Below, piece after piece: positions 9,606 to 53,214 of a stretch of DNA of 54,904 nucleotides. Under the pieces are notes generated by a model. It saw only the letters and a list, made by a program, of their open reading frames with translations. It searched no databases and was not told the origin of the DNA. The DNA comes from Eubacteriales bacterium. Lineage in GTDB: Bacteria > Bacillota > Clostridia > Oscillospirales > Butyricicoccaceae. Each line of letters begins with the position of its first letter. The stretch's first letter is position 1. A program made the translations under genes and the position numbers. The stretch lies in contig JAUNGZ010000003.1 in the NCBI GenBank assembly GCA_030524205.1, positions 89,828-144,731 on the forward strand. The letters are read 5' to 3'.

Positions 9606-11432
<1,827 letters not shown>

Positions 11433-12037
11433 GTATATTCCTCCATAAAGCCGGATATTTTCGTACGGATATTATTATACTTTGTTTTTAAGTGCATTTC
11501 TACTTGTTTTATCATCAAAATTGCGCGATTATGCGGACGAAAAACTGTAAAAAAAAGCGGAAAACAGATATGTGCGCTAAAACCGGGGTCATCATTAGAT
11601 TTTCCGCAAAGAAAAACCGTGGGCGCCGTCCGCCGCCCGCACGTACCAAGAACCCAATCCGCCGTGCAAAATGCCGATTTCGCAAAATGGTAAATAAATC
11701 GCAACATTCCAGCTCTTTATCATGGTGAGAAATCCCCCCTGAGGAGCAGGGAATTACACAAAAAATCAGTAAAATTACGCAAGAAAATCACTTTTTCCCT
11801 TTACAAACTCGTGCAATATCGCTATACTGTATGTAAGAAACGTTGAAAAATGGCGAAAAAAGCGTACTTTTTTTGACGGTTATTTTTTTGCTGTTTTCGA
11901 GGGGTGGGGGGTCAAAAACGCTGGTTACACAGTATATTGCGGTTACATAAGTATTTCCATTTTTTTCACCTGTCGGTTTAAGTAACTATTTTAACCGCAC
12001 AGTTTTTATATATAGGACAATGAAAGGAGAAATAATC
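11433..12037 (+). promoter_or_regulatory. Promoter and long leader of the surface-protein operon
   Basis: A 605-base gap between the divergent typA and the giant surface gene. On the plus strand there is a strong sigma-A promoter: TTTACA at 11800-11805, 17 bases, TATACT at 11823-11828. Transcription from it would give a leader of about 200 bases before the ATG at 12038. The leader is AT-rich, with poly-T tracts and two direct copies of GGTTACA-N(1-2)-AGTAT starting at 11923 and 11941, 18 bases apart. It also has a short dyad CGGTT...AACCG at about 11974-11997. No gene with a good start is seen in this gap. Confidence 0.7.
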
Positions 12038-15000
12038 ATGGTGCGCAAGCAACTAAGCAAAAATGGTGCGGAAGCACGCTCCGGGGCGGGCAAACGGCTG
12101 CTGTCCTTGCTGCTGACCGCGGCGATGCTGACGGGTCTGCTTCCGTCGATGTCGTTCACGGCCGCGGCGGCGGATTATACAATTGTGCCGGGAAATGGTT
12201 CCACTTATACGATTTCAGGCACAAATAATTACACGATCAATACCTCCGGTACGTTTACGAATTATAGTATAACGGCAAGCGGCAGCTCGACGCTGACCAT
12301 ACCCGCAGGGATAACTCTGACCATTGACAACCGTACAGCGGGTGGGGGGTCTCCTATTAAGGTGACTTCGGGCACGCTGAATCTGGTGGTCAATGGTTCT
12401 TTGACTGTTTATGGGCAGGTAGGCGGCACGGGTGAGGAAAACTGGACAGATCCCACGCCGGGTGGCGCAGGCGCTTATGCAGGTCTTGAAGTACCAGCGG
12501 GCAGTAAGCTGACCATCGGCGGCGTAGGCACGCTGAAAGCATATGGCGGCGACGCTGGTGACGGTGGCGACAGTGTATATAATCCAGCCGAAAGCCGCAC
12601 AGATACTGGTGGTGGCGGCGGCGGCGGTGCTGGCGCAGGTATCGGCGGCAATGGCGGCGTGGGCGGCAACGGTGGATTAGGCGCTGGTCCTACATGGACT
12701 AGTGGTGGACAGGGAAATTCAAGCGGTGCAGTCCAAATCAGAGACACGGTCAAAGTAACAGCATATGGCGGCGGCGGTGGCAACGGCGGTGACGGCGCAA
12801 TTTTAAATAATTTGGCTGGCGGTGGCGGTGGCGGCGGTTATCCAGCGGCTGGTATTGGCGGCGGCGGTGCTGGCGGCGGCGGCGGCAGTAATGGTGCTGG
12901 TTGCGGTGGCTTTTCGGGCGGTGCTGGAGAGAACCTGTATGTGTCTCACAAAATACCAATTCCGGGCGCTTCGAATGGTATGGGCGCACCGGGCGGTTAT
13001 TCGTCAACTGGTGCCGCAGGAACACAGAATATCGGCGGCGGCGGTTATTTTGAAGCGGGAAAATATGCCAGCGGCACGTACGGTTCTGACGGACCTATTG
13101 GCGGCGGCGGTGTGACAAGTGGCGGTGTCGGTGGCTCGGGCGGCACGGTTGCAAAGGGCAATCTAGCTACGCTAACCGCTTTTAATGGTTCGTATACTAC
13201 GACATCTGCCAATCAATATGGAACGAACCAAACTCCGATTTATGCACAGTTGGGCTATGCGTTGGATGATATCCGAGCGACAGGTATTAAGGAGATCGAC
13301 GGTCGCAGCGCATCGGCAATTACCAGTGAACTGAGCAGTGTTTCTAAAACGATTGGTACGACCAGCTTTGGTATCGGTATCGGTTCCGGTGCGGGATATA
13401 GGGAAGGCACAAACGGTTCGTACACGATCGGCAACGTGCCGACGACAATAAACGGCGCGGCCAGCGTTGCATCTACCACGTCCATCAATTTTACCGGCCT
13501 GTCCGGTACGGGCGGCACGGGCAACGCGACAAGCTTCCGTATTTATAATGTGACGGATAACAAAAATACGGTAATCAACGGTGCTTCCGGAACCGTTACC
13601 GGTCTGTCGATAGGCAAAAAATACACGTTCCGTGTTTACGCAACCAATGAATACGGCGAAAGCACAGCGTACAAGGAAATACCTAGCGTTGCAACGGTGC
13701 TTGCCCCCGGCGCGGTGACGATTTCGACCATCACGCGCGGCAACAAGCAGCTGACCGTCAACTGGACGGCCCCGGCGGGCAACGGCGAAAACGCCAGCAA
13801 GTACAAGCTGGAATCCAGCACGGACGGCAAGACGTGGACGACGGTAAGCGATACCATCACCGGCACAAGCCACGCGCACACCGGGCTGGCAACCGGCACG
13901 ACCTATCAGTACCGGGTATCTGCGTACAACTCTGCGGGGTGGGGGGCTGCCGGCGCTGTGAAGAGCGCCAAGACCTACGGCCTGCCGGGAACGCCCACGC
14001 CGACCGTTGCGGCGGATACCAAGGCGCTGAATATCAGCTGGTTGGCGGTCGACGGAGACGGCCAAACGGTTACGTATGAAGTGTACGAGGTGGACGGCTC
14101 CACCGAAACCAAGGTCAGCGGCAATACCGCGCTGACCGCCACCAGCTTCAAGCATACGGGTCTGGAGAACAACTCGACCCATACGTATAAGGTAAAGGCG
14201 ATCACGCCGGCGGGCACGGTCATGTCCGGCACGGCGTCCGGCACGACGCACAGCGTGCCCGCCGTCCCAACCGACGTAACCGCCGCGGTGACCAAGGTTT
14301 ACACGGATGGTGACAGCGTTAAAAAGGCGCAGGTAACGGTCACCTGGAACGCGCCGACCTCGAACGGCGGCACGGCGGTGACCGGCTACAAGGTAAGCTG
14401 GTACGCCAACGGCACGTTCGCCGGGTCGGAAACGGTCGGCAGCGTATCGCAGTACGTCAAGGACGGCCTGCCGCTCGGCACAAGCTATACGTTCCGCGTG
14501 GCCGCGCTCAACGCGGCGGGCGAAGGGCCGGAGGGGTACGGCACCAATTCGATGGTGACCACTTGGAACGTGCCCGACCCGGTGCGCAGCGTTACCGGTA
14601 CCTCTGATAACGGCGCTTTGACGCTGAATTGGCAGGAGCCCGCGAATAACAACGGGCAGGCGGTCACCCAGTATGCGATTTACGTTTTTGCGAACAAAGA
14701 GGACGCGGACGCGGACAACAGGGATAAGCTGGTAAATATTCCGGGAAGCTCCAATCCGGTTATCGTGTCCGCAGACGGCAGCACCTCGAAAACGATCCAG
14801 AACCTGCCTGTGGGCGAAACTTACTTTGTGCGCATATCGGCGACCAACAGCGTGGGCGAAAGCACGCGCAGCCCGTCGTATGAGGTTGGCGTGAACGGGC
14901 CGCCGTCGGCGGTGTCGGGCATCAAGGCAACGGCGGTTAGCGATACCGAAATCGAGGTCACATGGTCGCCCGCCAACGCGAACGGCCAGCCGATCACCAA

Positions 15001-33672: not shown

Positions 33673-36192
33673 ATGAAACAAAAATGGATATCCCGCTTGC
33701 TGGCGTCCGCCATGCTGCTGAACCTGCTGCCGGCGGCGCTTGCGGCGCAGACCGTCGCGCCGGTCGTCTCCTACGCGGCCGACCCGGACAGCATCGTCAC
33801 TAAGATCGAGCCGGTGCAGAGCGGCACGGCATGGAAGACCGGCCTTGAAATCACCACGAAAGCGGACGGCAAGGTATACGCGGTGCTGCTGCAAACCGGC
33901 GACCGGTCGAAAATCACCGATATTGCGACGATTACGGACGGCACCTACGACAGCCTGCCCGCGCTTGCGGGCAACGCCCACTATCGTTCGGGCTCTGCTT
34001 CCTTCGCCGGGGCGGGCACGCAGACGATCGACCTCGGTGCGGCGCTGCCGTCGCTGACGGTGAACGAAACCAGCACGACGTACCACCGCTCCTACACGTT
34101 CATCGTGTTCGACAGTGCAACCAAGCTGGAAAACGCGAGCGACTATGCCGAAGGCACCTTCCGCATCGACAGCCAAGGCAAGCTGCAGCGCGACTCCTAC
34201 ATGGTGCGCTACATGAAGAACGGCGCGTCCGCGGGCGGCGCGTCGAGCACGCCCGCGCCCATGCCGGCCTATCAGATCACCGACTGGGGCAGCGCGACCA
34301 CGCTTTCGAGCACAAAGCCCGTCAGAGCGGGCTATGACCTGCTCGGCTGGGATGAGAACAAGGATCTGCTCGGCACCGTCCCGAATACGGCGGCGGCCAG
34401 CACCGCGGAACCACAGTATAAGGCGGGCGGCAGCTATCCCGCGCCGGGCGGCGCGCATAACCCGGCGGCGGACAAGATCGTCAGCCTGTACGCGATCTGG
34501 AAGCCCAAGCAGGTGCAGTTCGAGGGCGAGACCAAAACCTTTGACGGGGATAAGACCCCGCAGGTCGGCGTGGCGTTCGACAGCGGTTCGATCGCGCTCG
34601 CGTCCTCGTCCGCGACGGACACCGCCAAGACGTACACCGTCACCGCAGGGACGCTGCCGGCGGGCCTCAAAGTCAGTCAGGTGGACAACACCCACTGGCA
34701 TATTACCGGCACACCCACGCAGGACAGCGCCGGTCAGCCCGTGACCGTTACGCTGCAGGTGCAGGACAACGGCAACAAAACCACGGACACCGTAACCGTC
34801 ACGTTCCACGAGGTCAAACGCGGCCTGCGGCCCGCGCCCGATTTGGATGTGAACACCGGCCTTGCCAGCCAGATCGAAACGGTGGGCGAGGGCGAAGACG
34901 CCGCGTCCGACGGACAGATCATCGGCTTTTATTCGGCCGGTCAGGAGCAGAAAAGCGACGAGGCAAACAATTCCATGACCGATGGAACGGGCAGCTACGC
35001 GGCTTACTATCTGCAGCAGGGCATGGTGTACGAGTACCGTCCCAAAATCGTGTCGGGCGCGGCGTATGACAATGACGGCGACGCTTCGACCGAAACGCCG
35101 TGGCGCGAAGTGCCCGCACCGGAAAGCTATTATGCGGACTTGGACGACGCGGGAAAAACTGCGCTGGCCGATTCCATGGCGAAAGGCGCGGCGACGGCGG
35201 TTCAGACAATGATCGCGGACGGCAAAGCGACGATCGTTTCCCGCGCGCTCGATGAGGGTTGGGGGGACGAATACGGCTATCTGCAATTCGACGAGGGACT
35301 GCCTGTGGTGCACGGCCTTGCGGCGGACGACGTGTATGAGATCCGGTTCCGCGCGAGCGACACCTTCGACGCGAGCACGGCGGCCGAGGTAACGATCGGC
35401 GGCGCGAAAGGCGGCGGAGGCGGCACAAGCGGCCCGCCGAGCACGGACGATTTCTGCACGGTGGTGTTCTACGACTGGGACAACACGCTGCTGGGCAGCC
35501 GCATCGTGGCAAAGGGCGGGAGCCTGAAGGGCGAAACGCTCGACGACTGCGGCGACAGCGCGGACCAAGCGCCCAAGCCGCCGGAAGGCGAACTGCTGTA
35601 TGACGCGAACGGAAACGGCGAATACGACTTTATTGGCAATAACAACGCGGGAAACGACGTAAAGAATAAAGCCGGATACACGTTTGCGGGCTGGGTCGAT
35701 TATGAAACAGGATATTCGGTGCCGAATGTGGCGGCGAGTGCAGTTAGAGGACAAGCTATTCCCAAAGAGGAAATAATTAGCTTATCCAGTATTACAGAGA
35801 ACTTAATAGTGAAAGCCGCATATAATGAAGACGCTTTAATCATTGGTACAACGCCGGTAAATAGACGATATTTGATTTCGTATACACCATTTAAAGCAGT
35901 AAACGGTGCTTTGCAAACTGAAATAACAGTACGACGTCCTCAAAATGCGCGCCGTGCGGTAGATGGAAAGATTTATTTGCAAATTGCACTGCAACCTGCG
36001 GACAGAGGGCAAACAAACGTTGAACTACCATTAGGAACAAGTGATGTAGAGCGGGTCACCTTTTCCATGCCAGCAACAGCATCGGGTTCATATCATGCAT
36101 CGGCAGCGCTGAGCTTTACTGTTGGCGATGCAAGCGGGACAGGTCGAAGTGATACCTTGACAGTTCGGGCAGAAGATATCGTTGCTCACTAA
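33673..36192 (+). CDS. Secreted protein with InlB-like and putative-Ig repeats
   Basis: 839 residues, starting three bases after the previous stop. Signal peptide about 1-25. InlB/Listeria-Bacteroides-type repeats lie near 187-276 (MVRYMKNG... RAGYDLLGWDEN... YAIWKPK) and again in the C-terminal part (VVFYDWDNTLLGS, AGYTFAGWVDYETG). A He_PIG-like putative Ig domain is at about 277-380 (LPAGLKVSQVDN... ITGTPTQDSAGQ). No SLH or dockerin is seen. The last ~170 codons (from about 35690) switch to AT-rich codon use. Confidence 0.7.
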   Translation: MKQKWISRLLASAMLLNLLPAALAAQTVAPVVSYAADPDSIVTKIEPVQSGTAWKTGLEITTKADGKVYAVLLQTGDRSKITDIATITDGTYDSLPALAGNAHYRSGSASFAGAGTQTIDLGAALPSLTVNETSTTYHRSYTFIVFDSATKLENASDYAEGTFRIDSQGKLQRDSYMVRYMKNGASAGGASSTPAPMPAYQITDWGSATTLSSTKPVRAGYDLLGWDENKDLLGTVPNTAAASTAEPQYKAGGSYPAPGGAHNPAADKIVSLYAIWKPKQVQFEGETKTFDGDKTPQVGVAFDSGSIALASSSATDTAKTYTVTAGTLPAGLKVSQVDNTHWHITGTPTQDSAGQPVTVTLQVQDNGNKTTDTVTVTFHEVKRGLRPAPDLDVNTGLASQIETVGEGEDAASDGQIIGFYSAGQEQKSDEANNSMTDGTGSYAAYYLQQGMVYEYRPKIVSGAAYDNDGDASTETPWREVPAPESYYADLDDAGKTALADSMAKGAATAVQTMIADGKATIVSRALDEGWGDEYGYLQFDEGLPVVHGLAADDVYEIRFRASDTFDASTAAEVTIGGAKGGGGGTSGPPSTDDFCTVVFYDWDNTLLGSRIVAKGGSLKGETLDDCGDSADQAPKPPEGELLYDANGNGEYDFIGNNNAGNDVKNKAGYTFAGWVDYETGYSVPNVAASAVRGQAIPKEEIISLSSITENLIVKAAYNEDALIIGTTPVNRRYLISYTPFKAVNGALQTEITVRRPQNARRAVDGKIYLQIALQPADRGQTNVELPLGTSDVERVTFSMPATASGSYHASAALSFTVGDASGTGRSDTLTVRAEDIVAH

Positions 36193-36214
36193 CTCATGTA
36201 ATTGGAGAATAAAA

Positions 36215-39200
36215 ATGAAAAGATGTATAAGCATATTTTTATCGGTTGTTATGGTACTGTCTATGTCATGCAGTGCATTGGCGGTGCTAACGCCTCCGAT
36301 AGGTAGCAGCAACTATGAGAATTTGAATGTTACAGGATTACAATTAAAGGAGGGCTCTAGCGACCAAAATTGGGTTGTTGAAGCATCAGGCACCTTGGAA
36401 ACTGGTCCAGACAGCTATTGGGGTGACGACAAAATCTCTATTTATGTCGTCGATATCGATACAGTGGGCGAACTTATTGATTCAAAGAATGCAAGCGAAA
36501 AATTGGCAGTGAATACCAACAATAGCTGGGTAGCTACGACAGGGGATATTCTAAAAGTTAATATGCCTGTGGCTCATGAGTTTAAAGTAGGTGTTTACTG
36601 CAATAGTGATGGTAAAACCGGCGATACGCTGGTAACGGCCACATTCAAAATAGATGCTGAGGGTAATGTTCTTGCGGGCTGGGACGCATTGCCTCCCTCC
36701 TCCGCTCCGACCGGCGCGGCGGCCGTTACAGCCAGCGCAACAAATTCCGGCGACGTCAGTGGCAGCGCGATCAAATCCGGTGCGGCAGGCGTTAAGCTGA
36801 CCGCTTCGGGCGCGAGCGCGGCTTCTGGCGGCACGCTGTCTTACAAGTGGTACAAGGGCACTGTCTCTGAGAGCACGGAAATCACAGAGAATGTATCGAA
36901 GACGTCGGCGGAGGGCGATACCCTGACCCTTGGGGAATACCGCCATGCGAAGGCCGGCACCTATATCGCTGTGCCGTACAACACGGAGACCGGCAAGTCG
37001 GCGACCGCGGGCACACAGGGTTCGATTACCCTGACCACCACCAAAATCGCGCAGGCCACCGCTGTCACGGTTTCTAAGGTAGGCAGCGAAACCACGACCA
37101 CGGTTAAGGTGAAGGCTGCGGGCGGCGACGGCACGGGCGGCTATCAGGTCGCCATCGTCGCAAACGATGTGGGCAGCACGGGCGCGTCTTGGCAGAACTG
37201 CGACGCTTCCGGCGAATTTACGTTTACCGGTCTGACGAAAAACACCGATTACGACGTATATGCCAAGCGGCTGACAGACAATGATTACGAGGAATCCGCC
37301 GTTTCGACTAAGCTGGACGTAAAGACCGCCGATGAGAACGGCTATCTGGTATCGGTCGCCAAGTCCGGCGACGGTACGGACAAGCACACCGTTACGGTTG
37401 ATGGCGGCGCAAGCGCGGCGATTGCGGCGAATACGCAGAAAACCATCGTGGCGACTGCGGCGGCCGGATACAGCTTTAACGGCTGGACGGCCAGCGTTGG
37501 GGGCGGCACGTTTGGCAGCGCCAGCACGGCCAGCACAACCTACACCACGCCGTCCGCGATTCCGTCCAGCAATAATTCTCCGATCACGCTGACGGCGGCC
37601 TTCAAGGCCAACGAGCTGGTTTGGTCGGACGCGACGCTGACGGCGGGCACGATCAACACGGCGTACAACCAGACGCTGACCGCGCCGACGAACGGTACGG
37701 GCACGTATACCTATGCGCTGAAAGCCGGTTCCGCTCTGCCCGAGGGCTTGAGCCTGAACGGAAGTACGGGCGCGATCACCGGCACCCCGACGAAGGCGTA
37801 TGCCCCCACCGGCAAGAGCTTTACCATCACTGCCACCGATACCGGCAGCAGCAAGACCAAGGATGCGACGTTTACGCTGGTGATCGGCAAGCAGGCGCTG
37901 GACGGCACCGCGCAGTTTACGGCGGGCGGCACCGCGCCGGTGATCGGCACGCAAATCACGGCGGAGCTGAATACCACCAGCGCAGCATCTTCGGATTACA
38001 CGGTAAGCTGGTACCGCAGCGACGACAACGCGCTGGACGCCGGCGACACAAAAATCGAGGGAGCGACCGCGCTGTCGTACACGCCCGTCGCGGCGGATGC
38101 CGGCAAGTATCTGATTGCGGTATTTACGGGTACGGACGTCAATTACACCGGTACGAAGAGCGTTGCCACCGGCGCGGCGGTCAGCAAGAAGACCCAGAGC
38201 GCGGTTGTGACCAATGTTACCATCGACGACGATAAAAACGAGATCACCTTCACTAAAAATGCCGATACTGCGCTGACCTATGAGTACACGGTGAATAACG
38301 GCACGAATTGGTATCCCGTCAAGCTCGACGGCAAGGTGATCGGCATTACGGGAGGCACGTATGCGAACACCGACGTGCAGATCCGTGTGGCGGAAACGGC
38401 TGAGGCAAAGGCCGGTAGTGGCGTAGCGGCGAACTCCGGTTCGTTTACCGTTCCGGCGCAGGTGACCGGTACGCCCGCCGATTTGGCACTGACTAAGGGT
38501 GTGCAGAGCATCAAGGCCGAGTGGAGCGACTACGCGAACACGGTGTCGAATACGAAGCCCGCGGCAAAGTACATGGTGTATGTGTACGACGGCAACGTAG
38601 CCATCAGCAAAACGGAAGTCGCGGCGCCCGACCCGCTGACCGGCAAGGTGAGCACAACGCTTACCGGCCTGACGGGCGGCAAGACTTACGGCGTGGCAGT
38701 TTCCGCGGTCGTAAATGATACGCAGGATTATGAAGGCGACCAGTGTGGCGTTGCGACGGCAACCCCCGATTCTTCGGCTCCGTCTCCGTCCGGCGGCGGT
38801 GGCGGCGGCGGAACGACCTCCTACAAGGTGACGTTCAGCGCCGGCGCGGACGGCAAGATCACCAAGGGCGGCGAGACGGTTTATGTGAACTCCGGCTCCA
38901 AGCTCGCGAAGGATAAGCTGCCGGCCGTGACCGCGAATGACGGCTACAAGTTCCTCGGCTGGTCGCTGGACGGCAAGACCGTCGTTGATCCGACCGAAGC
39001 CAAGGTCACCAAGGCGGTTACCTACACCGCGCTTTACGAAAAGACGGAAGCGCCGGCGGAACCCAAGGCCGAAGGCTTTGTCAAGGACCGCACGGAAGGC
39101 TATATCAACGGCTATCCGGACGGCACGTTCCGTCCCGAGGCGGGCGTTACCCGCGGCGAAGTCGCGGCGATGATCGCGCGCACGATCCTGCCCTCCTTCC

Positions 39201-39655
39201 CGGCGGGTCAGGCGTTCGATTCGGCTTATAACGACCTCGGCGGCCATTGGGCGGCCAAGTATATCGGCTATTTGGAGAGCTTGGGCGTTGTCAACGGTTA
39301 TCCGGACGGCAGCTTCAAGCCCGACCAGACGATCAGCCGCGCGGAGTTCGTCGCCATGGTCATCCGTGTGGACGGTCTGGTAAGCGGTGCGAATGCGTTT
39401 ACGGACGTACAGGATAGCTACTGGGCTGCCGATTACATTATCGCGGCGGCGGAAAAGGATTATGTGGGCGGCTATCCGGACGGCACCTTCCAGCCCCTGC
39501 GCGATATCACCCGCGCGGAAGCGGCCAAGATCGTCAACAGCGTGCTTGGCTGGGCGGATAAAAAGGCCGACGGCGAAATGCGTTTCAGCGACGTGGCGGA
39601 AGGCTTCTGGGGCTGGACGGATATCGTCAAGGCGTCCAACGGCGTCGAAGCGTAA
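36215..39655 (+). CDS. SLH-anchored surface protein with Ig-like and InlB-like domains
   Basis: 1146 residues; the ATG at 36215 follows TTGGAG. Signal peptide about 1-24 (SCSALA). The middle region has several Ig-like sandwiches, including a He_PIG-type domain (about 469-555: ALPEGLSLNGSTGAITGTP). It also has a fibronectin-like domain near 755-850 and a Gly-rich linker (GGGGGGG, about 862). An InlB-like repeat (YKVTFSAGADGKITKGG... FLGWSLDG) follows. Three SLH repeats close the protein (about 950-1146; GYINGYPDGTFRPEAGVTRGE, VNGYPDGSFKPDQTISRAEF, VGGYPDGTFQPLRDITRAE), which anchor it to the wall. The first ~475 bases are AT-rich and match the AT-rich end of the previous gene. Confidence 0.82.
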   Translation: MKRCISIFLSVVMVLSMSCSALAVLTPPIGSSNYENLNVTGLQLKEGSSDQNWVVEASGTLETGPDSYWGDDKISIYVVDIDTVGELIDSKNASEKLAVNTNNSWVATTGDILKVNMPVAHEFKVGVYCNSDGKTGDTLVTATFKIDAEGNVLAGWDALPPSSAPTGAAAVTASATNSGDVSGSAIKSGAAGVKLTASGASAASGGTLSYKWYKGTVSESTEITENVSKTSAEGDTLTLGEYRHAKAGTYIAVPYNTETGKSATAGTQGSITLTTTKIAQATAVTVSKVGSETTTTVKVKAAGGDGTGGYQVAIVANDVGSTGASWQNCDASGEFTFTGLTKNTDYDVYAKRLTDNDYEESAVSTKLDVKTADENGYLVSVAKSGDGTDKHTVTVDGGASAAIAANTQKTIVATAAAGYSFNGWTASVGGGTFGSASTASTTYTTPSAIPSSNNSPITLTAAFKANELVWSDATLTAGTINTAYNQTLTAPTNGTGTYTYALKAGSALPEGLSLNGSTGAITGTPTKAYAPTGKSFTITATDTGSSKTKDATFTLVIGKQALDGTAQFTAGGTAPVIGTQITAELNTTSAASSDYTVSWYRSDDNALDAGDTKIEGATALSYTPVAADAGKYLIAVFTGTDVNYTGTKSVATGAAVSKKTQSAVVTNVTIDDDKNEITFTKNADTALTYEYTVNNGTNWYPVKLDGKVIGITGGTYANTDVQIRVAETAEAKAGSGVAANSGSFTVPAQVTGTPADLALTKGVQSIKAEWSDYANTVSNTKPAAKYMVYVYDGNVAISKTEVAAPDPLTGKVSTTLTGLTGGKTYGVAVSAVVNDTQDYEGDQCGVATATPDSSAPSPSGGGGGGGTTSYKVTFSAGADGKITKGGETVYVNSGSKLAKDKLPAVTANDGYKFLGWSLDGKTVVDPTEAKVTKAVTYTALYEKTEAPAEPKAEGFVKDRTEGYINGYPDGTFRPEAGVTRGEVAAMIARTILPSFPAGQAFDSAYNDLGGHWAAKYIGYLESLGVVNGYPDGSFKPDQTISRAEFVAMVIRVDGLVSGANAFTDVQDSYWAADYIIAAAEKDYVGGYPDGTFQPLRDITRAEAAKIVNSVLGWADKKADGEMRFSDVAEGFWGWTDIVKASNGVEA

Positions 39656-39702: not shown

Positions 39703-40083
39703 ATGAAAAAGCTGTTTTCAGAGGAAGAAATCCGGATGCTGAGCTGCAATTCGTACGTTTGCTCCGTCAGCCCGTATGAAATCCGGTACACAAATGAATT
39801 CAAGCTGTTGTTCATCGAGCAGTATTTGCGCGGCAAAGGGCCGATGTGCATTTTTCAGGACGCCGGACTGCCGGTTGAGGTGCTGGGCTATAAACGCATC
39901 GAGCGGGCGGCCTACCACTGGAGGCACGCATACGAGGAGGGCCGTCTTGGGCAGGTGTCCGCACATGCCGGCAGCCGCAGCCCTTCACAGACGCTGATGG
40001 CGATTATTCGGGAACAGCGCACGGAAATCAGGCGGCTGCGGCGCGAGCTGCACAGCTGCAGAAATGAACGAAAAGACGCTTAG
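39703..40083 (+). CDS. Small IS3-OrfA-like HTH protein, copy 1
   Basis: 126 residues. The N-terminal HTH region follows the pattern seen in IS3-family OrfA proteins (LSCNSYVCSVSPYEIRYTNEF, then YKRIERAAYHWRHAY). The C-terminal part is charged and helical, probably a coiled coil (IREQRTEIRRLRRELH). No OrfB (integrase core) and no terminal inverted repeats lie nearby, so this is not a live insertion sequence. It starts 47 bases after the SLH gene with no terminator between, so it is the last gene of the surface operon. It closely resembles the protein at 52715-53095. A DNA-binding regulatory role is an inference. Confidence 0.75.
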   Translation: MKKLFSEEEIRMLSCNSYVCSVSPYEIRYTNEFKLLFIEQYLRGKGPMCIFQDAGLPVEVLGYKRIERAAYHWRHAYEEGRLGQVSAHAGSRSPSQTLMAIIREQRTEIRRLRRELHSCRNERKDA

Positions 40084-51401: not shown

Positions 51402-51518
51402 ACGATATGCCGGAGGCAAACCTAAGGTGTATATTGGTAAACGCCGCAGTACGTGACGAAAGCCGATAGAATAAACCCTGATTTAGCCGTTGGTGAATCG
51501 GGAACGGAGAGTGATTGC

Positions 51519-52367
51519 ATGCAGGAAAAACAATTGACGCCCGGACATTGCCGGGCGTTTGCGCAGTATTTGCGCGAGCAGGAGCGGAGCGCAAGCACCA
51601 TAATGAAGTATATGCACGATATCGGGTTGTTTATGGCCTCGCTTGACGGCGGCCTTGTAAACAAGGAAGCTGTTATCGCATTTAAACACGGCCTGACCGA
51701 ACGGTACAAGCTGTCGAGCGCAAATTCAATGCTGGTGGCGGTTAACAGCTTGTTTTCGTTTCTGGGCTGGTATGAAATGCGCGTTAAGCTGTTTAAGATG
51801 CAGCGGCAGAGCTTTCGTCCCTCCGACCGCGAGTTGAGCAGAACGGAATATCAGCGCCTGCTGCATGCGGCCAAAAGCCGGAGCAACGAACGTCTGTACC
51901 TGCTGATGCAGACCATTTGCAGCACGGGGCTGCGGGTAAGCGAGCATCGGTTTGTCACCGTAGAGGCGCTGCGAACAGGCCGCGCGCGCGTTCATAATAA
52001 AGGAAAGCAGCGGCTGGTGTTCCTGCCCGGAGAGCTGACGGCGCGCTTGCTGCAGTATTGCAAGCGCGTGGGAATCGCTTCCGGACCGGTTTTTGTGACG
52101 CGCACGGGAAAACCTCTGGATCGCAGCAACATTTGGGCTGCGATGAAGCGCCTGTGCAAAGAAGCGCGGGTTGATGCGGCAAAGGTGTACCCGCATAATC
52201 TGCGGCATCTGTTTGCAGTGACATATTATAGGCTGGAGCGCGATCTGGCGCATCTTGCGGATGTGCTTGGCCATGCCAGCGTTGAAACCACACGAATTTA
52301 TACGGCCACCAGTGCGAAGGAGCATGAAAAGAAGCTGTCCCGCTTAGGGCTGCTATGCTCCGGTTGA
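51519..52367 (+). CDS. Tyrosine recombinase (XerC/D-like), probable DNA invertase
   Basis: 282 residues. A SAM-like N-terminal core-binding domain (about 5-95) is followed by the catalytic domain. All active-site residues are present: Arg139 (STGLRVSE), Lys163 (NKGKQR), His226 and Arg229 (PHNLRH), His252 (LGHAS) and the nucleophile Tyr261 (TRIYTA). Such enzymes cut and rejoin short dyad sites. The start ATG at 51519 follows CGGAGAG; an upstream in-frame extension to 51453 is less likely. The gene ends nine bases before the first of two inverted 22-bp sites, which points to a local invertase. Chromosome-dimer XerC/D is an alternative, but true XerC/D genes do not sit beside such sites. Confidence 0.88.
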   Translation: MQEKQLTPGHCRAFAQYLREQERSASTIMKYMHDIGLFMASLDGGLVNKEAVIAFKHGLTERYKLSSANSMLVAVNSLFSFLGWYEMRVKLFKMQRQSFRPSDRELSRTEYQRLLHAAKSRSNERLYLLMQTICSTGLRVSEHRFVTVEALRTGRARVHNKGKQRLVFLPGELTARLLQYCKRVGIASGPVFVTRTGKPLDRSNIWAAMKRLCKEARVDAAKVYPHNLRHLFAVTYYRLERDLAHLADVLGHASVETTRIYTATSAKEHEKKLSRLGLLCSG

Positions 52368-52376
52368 CGGGCAAAA

Positions 52377-52398
52377 CCACATAATCTGTATTATGTAG
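52377..52398 (+). repeat. Inverted repeat, left (recombination site)
   Basis: A 22-bp site made of arms CCACATAAT and ATTATGTAG around the core CTGT. Its reverse complement matches the right site (52610-52631) at 21 of 22 positions, including the core. The dyad-plus-core design is that of tyrosine recombinase sites. Confidence 0.85.
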
Positions 52399-52609
52399 TA
52401 AGCATGTGCTGAAAGCTCTCGAACACAGGTCTGGCCGGAAATGGAAAGCGCGGTCAGGCCTCGTCTGCATGTCCGCACAGGGAATTCAGCGGATAATATG
52501 CGTTTGTTACCGCACACGGCAGACGCTTTTTGCGTCAAACCTCTTGCGTTGCAGAGTCGGATACGGCATAATATAAGTATTCAGTATCGGAAATCAGGCG
52601 CTGCCCCAA
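52399..52609 (+). other. Candidate invertible segment carrying an outward promoter
   Basis: 211 bp between the inverted sites, with no credible gene. Near its right end are two overlapping sigma-A-like promoters reading rightwards: TTGCGT (52544-52549), 17 bases, CATAAT (52567-52572); and TTGCAG (52549-52554), 17 bases, TATAAG (52572-52577). A comparable promoter reading left was not found. In the present orientation transcription would cross the right site into the HTH gene; after inversion it would point back into the recombinase gene. Confidence 0.7.
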
Positions 52610-52631
52610 CTACATAATACAGATTATGTAG
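52610..52631 (-). repeat. Inverted repeat, right (recombination site)
   Basis: A 22-bp site with arms CTACATAAT and ATTATGTAG around the core ACAG, which is the complement of the core in the left site. The two sites are therefore in inverted orientation, and recombination would flip the 211-bp segment. Confidence 0.85.
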
Positions 52632-52714
52632 TAACCCGCCGCCCAATAAGGGTGGGGGTTATGCCGCGCGGTTTCCATCGTAAACCCGACACGAAGGAAA
52701 TGGGGGCATATGCG

Positions 52715-53095
52715 GTGAGAAGAACATTTACAGCGGAAGAACAAGGCATGCTGGCGCGCAATCCCAACGTCTGCTCGGTCAATGAAACGCAGATATGCTA
52801 TACAAATGAATTCAAACAGCATTTTATGAAGCGGTACTTGGAGGGCGCGGGGCCTCAGCAAATCTTTGAGGAAGCCGGTCTGCCGACCCGGGTGCTGGGC
52901 TACAAACGCATCGAGCGCGCGGCCTATCATTGGCGCAAAGCCTATGAAAAGGGCACGCTGGGGCTGTATGCGGAGCATGAGGCCATCAGCACGCCGCAGG
53001 AAACCATGGCGCAGATTATTGCACGGCAGCGCAACACCATACAATATTTAGAGCGTGAATTGGAGCGGCTCAAAGCAACGGCCGGGCAGAAGTGA
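52715..53095 (+). CDS. Small IS3-OrfA-like HTH protein, copy 2
   Basis: 126 residues from the GTG at 52715, which has GGGGG eight bases upstream and lines up with the start of copy 1. Starts at 52700 (ATG), 52661 (ATG) or 52652 (GTG) are possible. The protein matches copy 1 (39703-40083) along its length, e.g. VCSV...YTNEF, IFEEAGLP and the identical VLGYKRIERAAYHW, then a helical tail (RQRNTIQYLERELERLK). No OrfB or terminal repeats are nearby. It lies immediately downstream of the candidate invertible promoter, so it is the likely target of the switch. Confidence 0.75.
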   Translation: MRRTFTAEEQGMLARNPNVCSVNETQICYTNEFKQHFMKRYLEGAGPQQIFEEAGLPTRVLGYKRIERAAYHWRKAYEKGTLGLYAEHEAISTPQETMAQIIARQRNTIQYLERELERLKATAGQK

Positions 53096-53164: not shown

Positions 53165-53214
53165 AAAGAGCAAAAGGTCAGCGGCGTTTTCGCACATCGG
53201 ACCTTCTGCTCTTT
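53165..53214. terminator. Terminator between HTH copy 2 and sigK
   Basis: 15-bp arms (53165-53179 with 53200-53214) with one mismatch, with A-rich sequence on the left and CTTTATTATT on the right. It separates the convergent HTH and sigK genes. The rest of 53096-53320 is GC-rich and shows no gene. Confidence 0.82.

Follow-up and report, generated by a model that had tools for sequence, protein, structure and literature searches.

The window spans the last 54,904 nucleotides of a contig of 144,731 bases, from a genome of 2.2 Mb (82% complete), and very probably holds an invertible-promoter phase switch worked by the tyrosine recombinase encoded beside it. The first-pass annotation of this DNA had proposed such a switch and a wider survey supports it: the paired sites are conserved at 57 of 66 loci of related recombinases, the cores of the sites covary within loci, and the segment between them is found flipped in four related lineages. 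In the mechanism proposed, the recombinase would bind the dyad arms at both sites and pair the sites, strands would be exchanged across the identical central core and, with the sites in inverted orientation, the roughly 210 bp between them (52400..52608, no strand assigned) would flip. In the sequenced orientation the promoter would point out of the segment and drive a downstream helix-turn-helix (HTH) gene (ON); in the flipped orientation it would face the recombinase gene and point into its 3′ end, leaving the HTH gene without a promoter (OFF) and presumably giving antisense transcription over the recombinase. Assignment of the enzyme to its sites is suggested by linkage and covariation, while transcription from the switch promoter and flipping in the source strain are predicted from the sequence.

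The left site (52376..52399, + strand, core CTGT at 52386-52389) reads CCACATAAT-CTGT-ATTATGTAG and lies nine bases past the recombinase stop, as first described (the stop ends at 52367 and the 22-bp site starts at 52377). Its inverted partner, the right site (52609..52632, + strand, core ACAG at 52619-52622), reads CTACATAAT-ACAG-ATTATGTAG, and both are kept in relatives. As inverted repeats the two extend over 24 nt (52376-52399 and 52609-52632) with 96% complementarity (23/24) and 209 nt between them; the pair of 22-mers originally noted, 52377-52398 and 52610-52631 with 211 bp between, lies within these repeats and stands. The 9-bp dyads claimed for each site hold for the right site, which is a perfect 9+9, and not for the left, where 8 of 9 positions pair. 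The cores CTGT and ACAG are indeed mutual reverse complements that differ in the direct sense. Both sites match the pattern ACATAAT-N4-ATTATGT perfectly, and at up to 3 mismatches they are the only two in the window, where shuffled windows contain a mean of 0.39 sites and reach two in 7 of 100 cases. They are also the only two perfect matches in the 82% complete genome, and allowing up to 2 mismatches brings no genome-wide enrichment: the pattern then has 4 matches and its reversed control 7.

The recombinase gene (51453..52367, + strand, starting at ATG 51519 or GTG 51453) encodes an Xer-type tyrosine recombinase that matches Phage_integrase with E=1.9e-25 in a profile search. XerA, XerD and XerC are its best sequence matches, yet its scores lie far under the curated cut-off of each model (128 against 220 bits, 106.8 against 329.6 and 97.6 against 335.15, respectively), and it does not qualify as an equivalogue of any of the three. 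Xer recombinases act at one dif-type site, whereas the switch here has two inverted local sites. The full catalytic set that had been read from the translation was confirmed, with all six residues (R, K, H, R, H, Y) present, and these six are invariant wherever an aligned letter exists among 69 aligned proteins, the window's own included (L092, which stops inside its match, was excluded).

Relatives of the recombinase number 61 in a species-level genome collection, and 19 near-full-length matches (47-100% identity, own included) were found in 9 of 25 genomes of the genus. Seventy loci were used, 56 from the species-level collection and 14 from the genus genomes; the five of the 61 that were unused (L088, L090, L091, L093 and L094) have incomplete matches. 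Sufficient downstream DNA was available at 66 loci, L066, L080, L083 and L087 being left out for having too little, and nine loci whose recombinase is encoded on the minus strand (L005, L006, L007, L010, L011, L012, L026, L027 and L028) were turned before counting. A pair was called when neither site had more than 3 mismatches over its 14 arm positions, whatever the cores; by this rule paired sites follow the recombinase at 57 of the 66 loci, the window's own included, on one side of it and in inverted orientation, at distances of 119-418 bp. Conservation of the sites beside the recombinase, which had been put forward as a check, is thereby borne out. No pair was found by this arm threshold at nine of the 66 loci (among them L006, L010, L013, L029, L055, L072 and L086), some of which have diverged arms or a single site. 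At L055 (4842) and L072 (4864) one good site was noticed whose partner was not found, possibly marking locked switches.

The outward sigma-A-like promoter reported to aim at the HTH gene is present in the sequence and is weak. It lies at 52544..52572 on the + strand and consists of TTGCGT (52544-52549) and CATAAT (52567-52572) separated by 17 bp, an 8/12 match to consensus with a score of 8.6, and a standard promoter scan did not report it. Its distance to the facing site is 39 bp, and distances of 35-39 bp occur at 19 of 55 loci, own included. Across the family, 38 of 57 loci have a best in-segment promoter with a score of 11 or more, a level reached by 1.7% of shuffled spacers. The better promoter faces the target at 18 of the 57 loci, among them the window, and the recombinase at 37, with two unclear; these orientations are those of the assembly consensus and not population frequencies. 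In neither strand of the window segment does a hairpin or terminator fold better than shuffles; hairpins were noticed by eye in spacers of relatives.

The switched gene (52715..53095, + strand, GTG start with an in-frame ATG at 52700) encodes a small HTH_Tnp_2 protein that scores 28.9 bits against PF20310, above the gathering cut-off of 23.8. It is followed by a terminator hairpin (53165..53214, + strand, fold z=-4.89, with none of 200 shuffles as stable) and then by T-rich sequence; given this strong hairpin, the switched unit looks like a single gene, apart from a convergent SigK-like gene. A link to that SigK-like neighbour was considered and none was found, the two being convergent with the strong hairpin between them. 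Across the switches more generally, a co-directional open reading frame of at least 90 aa lies within 900 bp of the right site at 54 of 57 loci, and by a crude hydropathy rule 33 of these 54 first targets have a strong N-terminal hydrophobic segment, so that the targets look often to be secreted. The first genes at L071 and L089 (833 and 683 aa) are helicase-like, with an HPTGTGKS stretch seen by eye, and are perhaps switched DNA-processing or defence genes.

The HTH gene itself is not a conserved target. It occurs in two of 87 family genomes, in two copies in G005 and in three in the source genome, and within 4 kb at each locus it was not found downstream of the other switches. The four other copies all come after surface-protein genes. 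One of them is in the window (39703..40083, + strand), where it ends a surface-protein run at 12020-39655 and has no adjoining switch; this run, through to 40083, comprises large surface-protein genes of 3998, 1655, 564, 431, 542, 839 and 1157 aa and then the HTH_Tnp_2 gene, and SLH domains are encoded at 36182-39655. A phase switch ahead of this operon was also considered and was rejected, as no inverted repeat was found at 11201-12300, the region around the start of the run at 12020. The two recombinases of G005 closest to that of the window share 62-63% identity with it, and this genome twice shows a recombinase followed by paired sites, then giant surface-protein genes, the HTH gene and after it one gene of another kind; two of the giant proteins behind these switches carry List_Bact_rpt repeats, one of them also MucBP.

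Since the other copies come after surface genes and the gene ends the switched operons of G005, the HTH gene may not have been the original purpose of the switch, and from gene order the window locus looks like a switch of which only the operon end is left. This raises the possibility that the segment still inverts but that surface genes were deleted from before the terminal HTH gene, so that inversion now has little effect. Such a remnant, which is compatible with a phase switch, has a little less than an even chance of being correct: the G005 order and the position of the other HTH copies argue for it, but the HTH gene, the promoter position and both sites are intact, and no surface-gene remains are discernible by eye at 52633-52714. 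Alternatively, the HTH protein could regulate in trans the unlinked surface operons that end in its paralogues, making the window locus a master switch. Two surface-gene runs in the source genome do end in HTH paralogues (50-52% identity), and switched regulators are not unusual, since a TetR-like first gene was recognized by eye at six of 54 other switches; nevertheless, the HTH family may serve another role and its Pfam label is transposon-related, and this regulation in trans is considered unlikely.

The wider consensus of the sites in relatives is about ACCACATAAT-N4-ATTATGTGGT, and 39 different cores occur between these arms. Within loci the two cores match in the inverted sense at 56 of 57 loci and in the direct sense at none, the one non-matching pair being that of L085, whereas re-dealing the right-hand cores among loci gave a mean of 2.2 matches and a maximum of 10 in 10,000 shuffles. 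Identity at core positions is 0.98-1.00 within loci against 0.27-0.33 between loci. A pattern search found perfect sites in 57 of 394 genomes of the order, and among the matches listed, in other genomes there are 30 cases of neighbouring perfect sites at 100-500 bp, of which 29 are inverted-core pairs, one of these repeating a locus of the 57. At G363:C6 27963-28254 three perfect sites were noticed, of which the middle one has a differing core, TGCC, so that neighbouring cores do not match.

In the four lineages with flipped segments, the recombinase end and the left site are co-directional between relatives while the segment, over its full length between the sites, aligns in reverse. This is the case for L034 against L040 and L052, for L035 against L039, L041 and L043, for L057 against L037 and L064, and for L054 against L047 and L051. 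The last group represents a copy-to-copy difference, since its three members have the same core and belong to a single genome; in each of the other three, the loci compared come from different assemblies. The opposite orientation foreseen for related genomes is thus found, with its breakpoints at the sites.

Each site is itself a dyad, and it might be argued that the pair serves as operators for a dimeric regulator and that nothing flips. This is very improbable for two reasons: first, strand exchange requires cores that are alike in the inverted sense within a locus, and operators would not lead to cores that match in this way at each locus while differing from one locus to the next. Second, operators leave the inverted segments between relatives unexplained. 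That the enzyme is a mobile-element integrase, with the sites as element ends or attachment sites, is scarcely credible, for despite its general family (Phage_integrase) and the relatives (50-58%) encoded by 4 viral-collection contigs, its better family matches are Xer-type, and the sites are inverted, local (119-418 bp apart) and on one side of the recombinase, with targets that differ. The observations that count against a phase switch are the weak window promoter, the lack of a hairpin beyond chance in the window segment, the nine of 66 loci where no pair was found, the mismatched cores of L085 and the lack of conservation of the HTH target.

The variation of cores on shared arms has a possible consequence for genomes with several switches. 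Among the matches listed, eight genomes have at least two inverted perfect pairs, and in six of these (G099, G100, G091, G093, G097 and G193) each pair has its own core; G005 has five pairs with one core repeated in two recombinase-less copies, and in G094 a single core serves all four pairs. Distinct cores would keep sister switches apart, although G094 indicates that this is not universal. If most cores pair only with their own partner, sister recombinases could coexist without rearranging the genome. The four switches of G094 (L047, L051, L054 and G094:C163) share the core TTTC/GAAA, and three of them have homologous spacers, one flipped, and could recombine mutually. In G005, the arms of the paired sites are altered at some of the more distant recombinases, ACAAAAT being an example. 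Three further pairs in this genome, L109 (2397991-2398195), L110 (2903311-2903529) and L111 (3745337-3745520), precede surface-protein-like genes, and no recombinase of the window family was found within 5.5-6 kb around each; the inner flanks of L109 are also long inverted repeats with 78-nt arms. It is possible that these three are trans-acted or miniature switch copies.

The distance between the sites follows the helical repeat of DNA. At the 57 loci the inter-site distances have a period of 10.4-10.5 bp with a phase of -0.16 bp at 10.5, that is, whole turns, and a strength of R=0.575 that none of 20,000 jittered sets equalled; with homologous spacers collapsed into 38 clusters R is 0.51, again with 0 of 20,000. 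This null uses jitter of up to 10 bp and treats the distances as independent, and spacer lengths may be partly shared by descent. Having first shown up in the 57 loci, the period was checked against further pairs from pattern searches of 20 genomes and of the 394 genomes of the order, among the matches listed, where 26 pairs less one locus of the first set and two possible duplicates left 23. These gave R=0.64 (0 of 20,000), with 21 of the 23 no more than a quarter turn off a whole number. In the pooled set the same holds for 69 of 80 pairs, and of the periods tested (4-40 bp) the strongest is 10.45 bp. The window's own distance of 233 bp corresponds to 22.19 turns. The recombinase-less pairs of G005 (160, 181 and 193 bp) fit whole turns more poorly, and when these three were included in the small further set, before duplicates were removed, the best period was 11.3 bp.

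The period is absent from the distance between the recombinase end and the left site (R=0.20, 515 of 5,000) and is present in the distance from the promoter to the facing site (R=0.70, n=55, 0 of 20,000). Extra site copies in the same orientation were observed at one end in L038, L046, L059, L068, L077, L079 and L009, and also in G359, G122, G249, G239, G193 and G090; they are perhaps accessory binding sites or alternative partners. Their spacing is 32 to 94 bp, near whole turns, and 13 such spacings gave R=0.72 at 10.5 and 0.80 at 10.0-10.25, values for which no null was computed; a 33 bp spacing in G090 is outside the 13. The simplest explanation of the period would be a protein-held loop in which both sites face the same way, and that the site, promoter and extra-site spacings share it may reflect a synaptic loop that is torsionally strict. 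A similar length period is known for the eliminated sequences of Paramecium.

Tyrosine-recombinase invertible promoters are known, also in Clostridia. Inverton group 139, with 32 of 33 members from the class Clostridia, is linked to tyrosine recombinase invertase group 35 (PMC11892184), and like the window switch it comprises intergenic or genic Clostridia invertons with a tyrosine-type recombinase close by. By description, these groups are probably the same family as the window switch; the sections of PMC11892184 on group 139 mention neither variation of the cores nor spacing. In Clostridioides difficile, the pdcB switch Cdi2 is 174 bp with imperfect 19-bp repeats and holds a promoter, and the flagellar switch depends on the tyrosine recombinase RecV and acts after transcription initiation (PMC9286219, PMC7446863). 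Both resemble the present switch in having a short segment with inverted repeats, and the flagellar one also in its tyrosine recombinase; the window switch differs from the flagellar one in that it would be expected to act through its promoter. One RecV serves several, distant C. difficile switches, whereas in the window family each switch usually has its own recombinase alongside. The invertible promoters of Bacteroidales, as Jiang et al. reportedly described in 2019 (cited in PMC11892184), are often at surface genes with invertases near. Promoter flipping with a nearby invertase is common to these and the window switch. The Bacteroidales promoters have other repeat motifs and are of another promoter type.

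Promoter flipping is already well described in Bacteroidales and C. difficile, and a literature search met no description, for such switches, of either the core rule or the whole-turn rule. There is about an even chance that the observations together describe an addressed family, in which most switches have their own cores and form a torsionally strict whole-turn loop, with the window switch maybe commanding a regulator of distant surface-protein operons. The variable cores offer a simple test of cross-talk avoidance among sister recombinases, and whole-turn spacing, as a rule of geometry, is open to experimental testing. Members of the family to which the window locus belongs occur in many genomes of gut Clostridia, frequently ahead of genes for secreted or surface proteins, and their sites can be found by a simple pattern.
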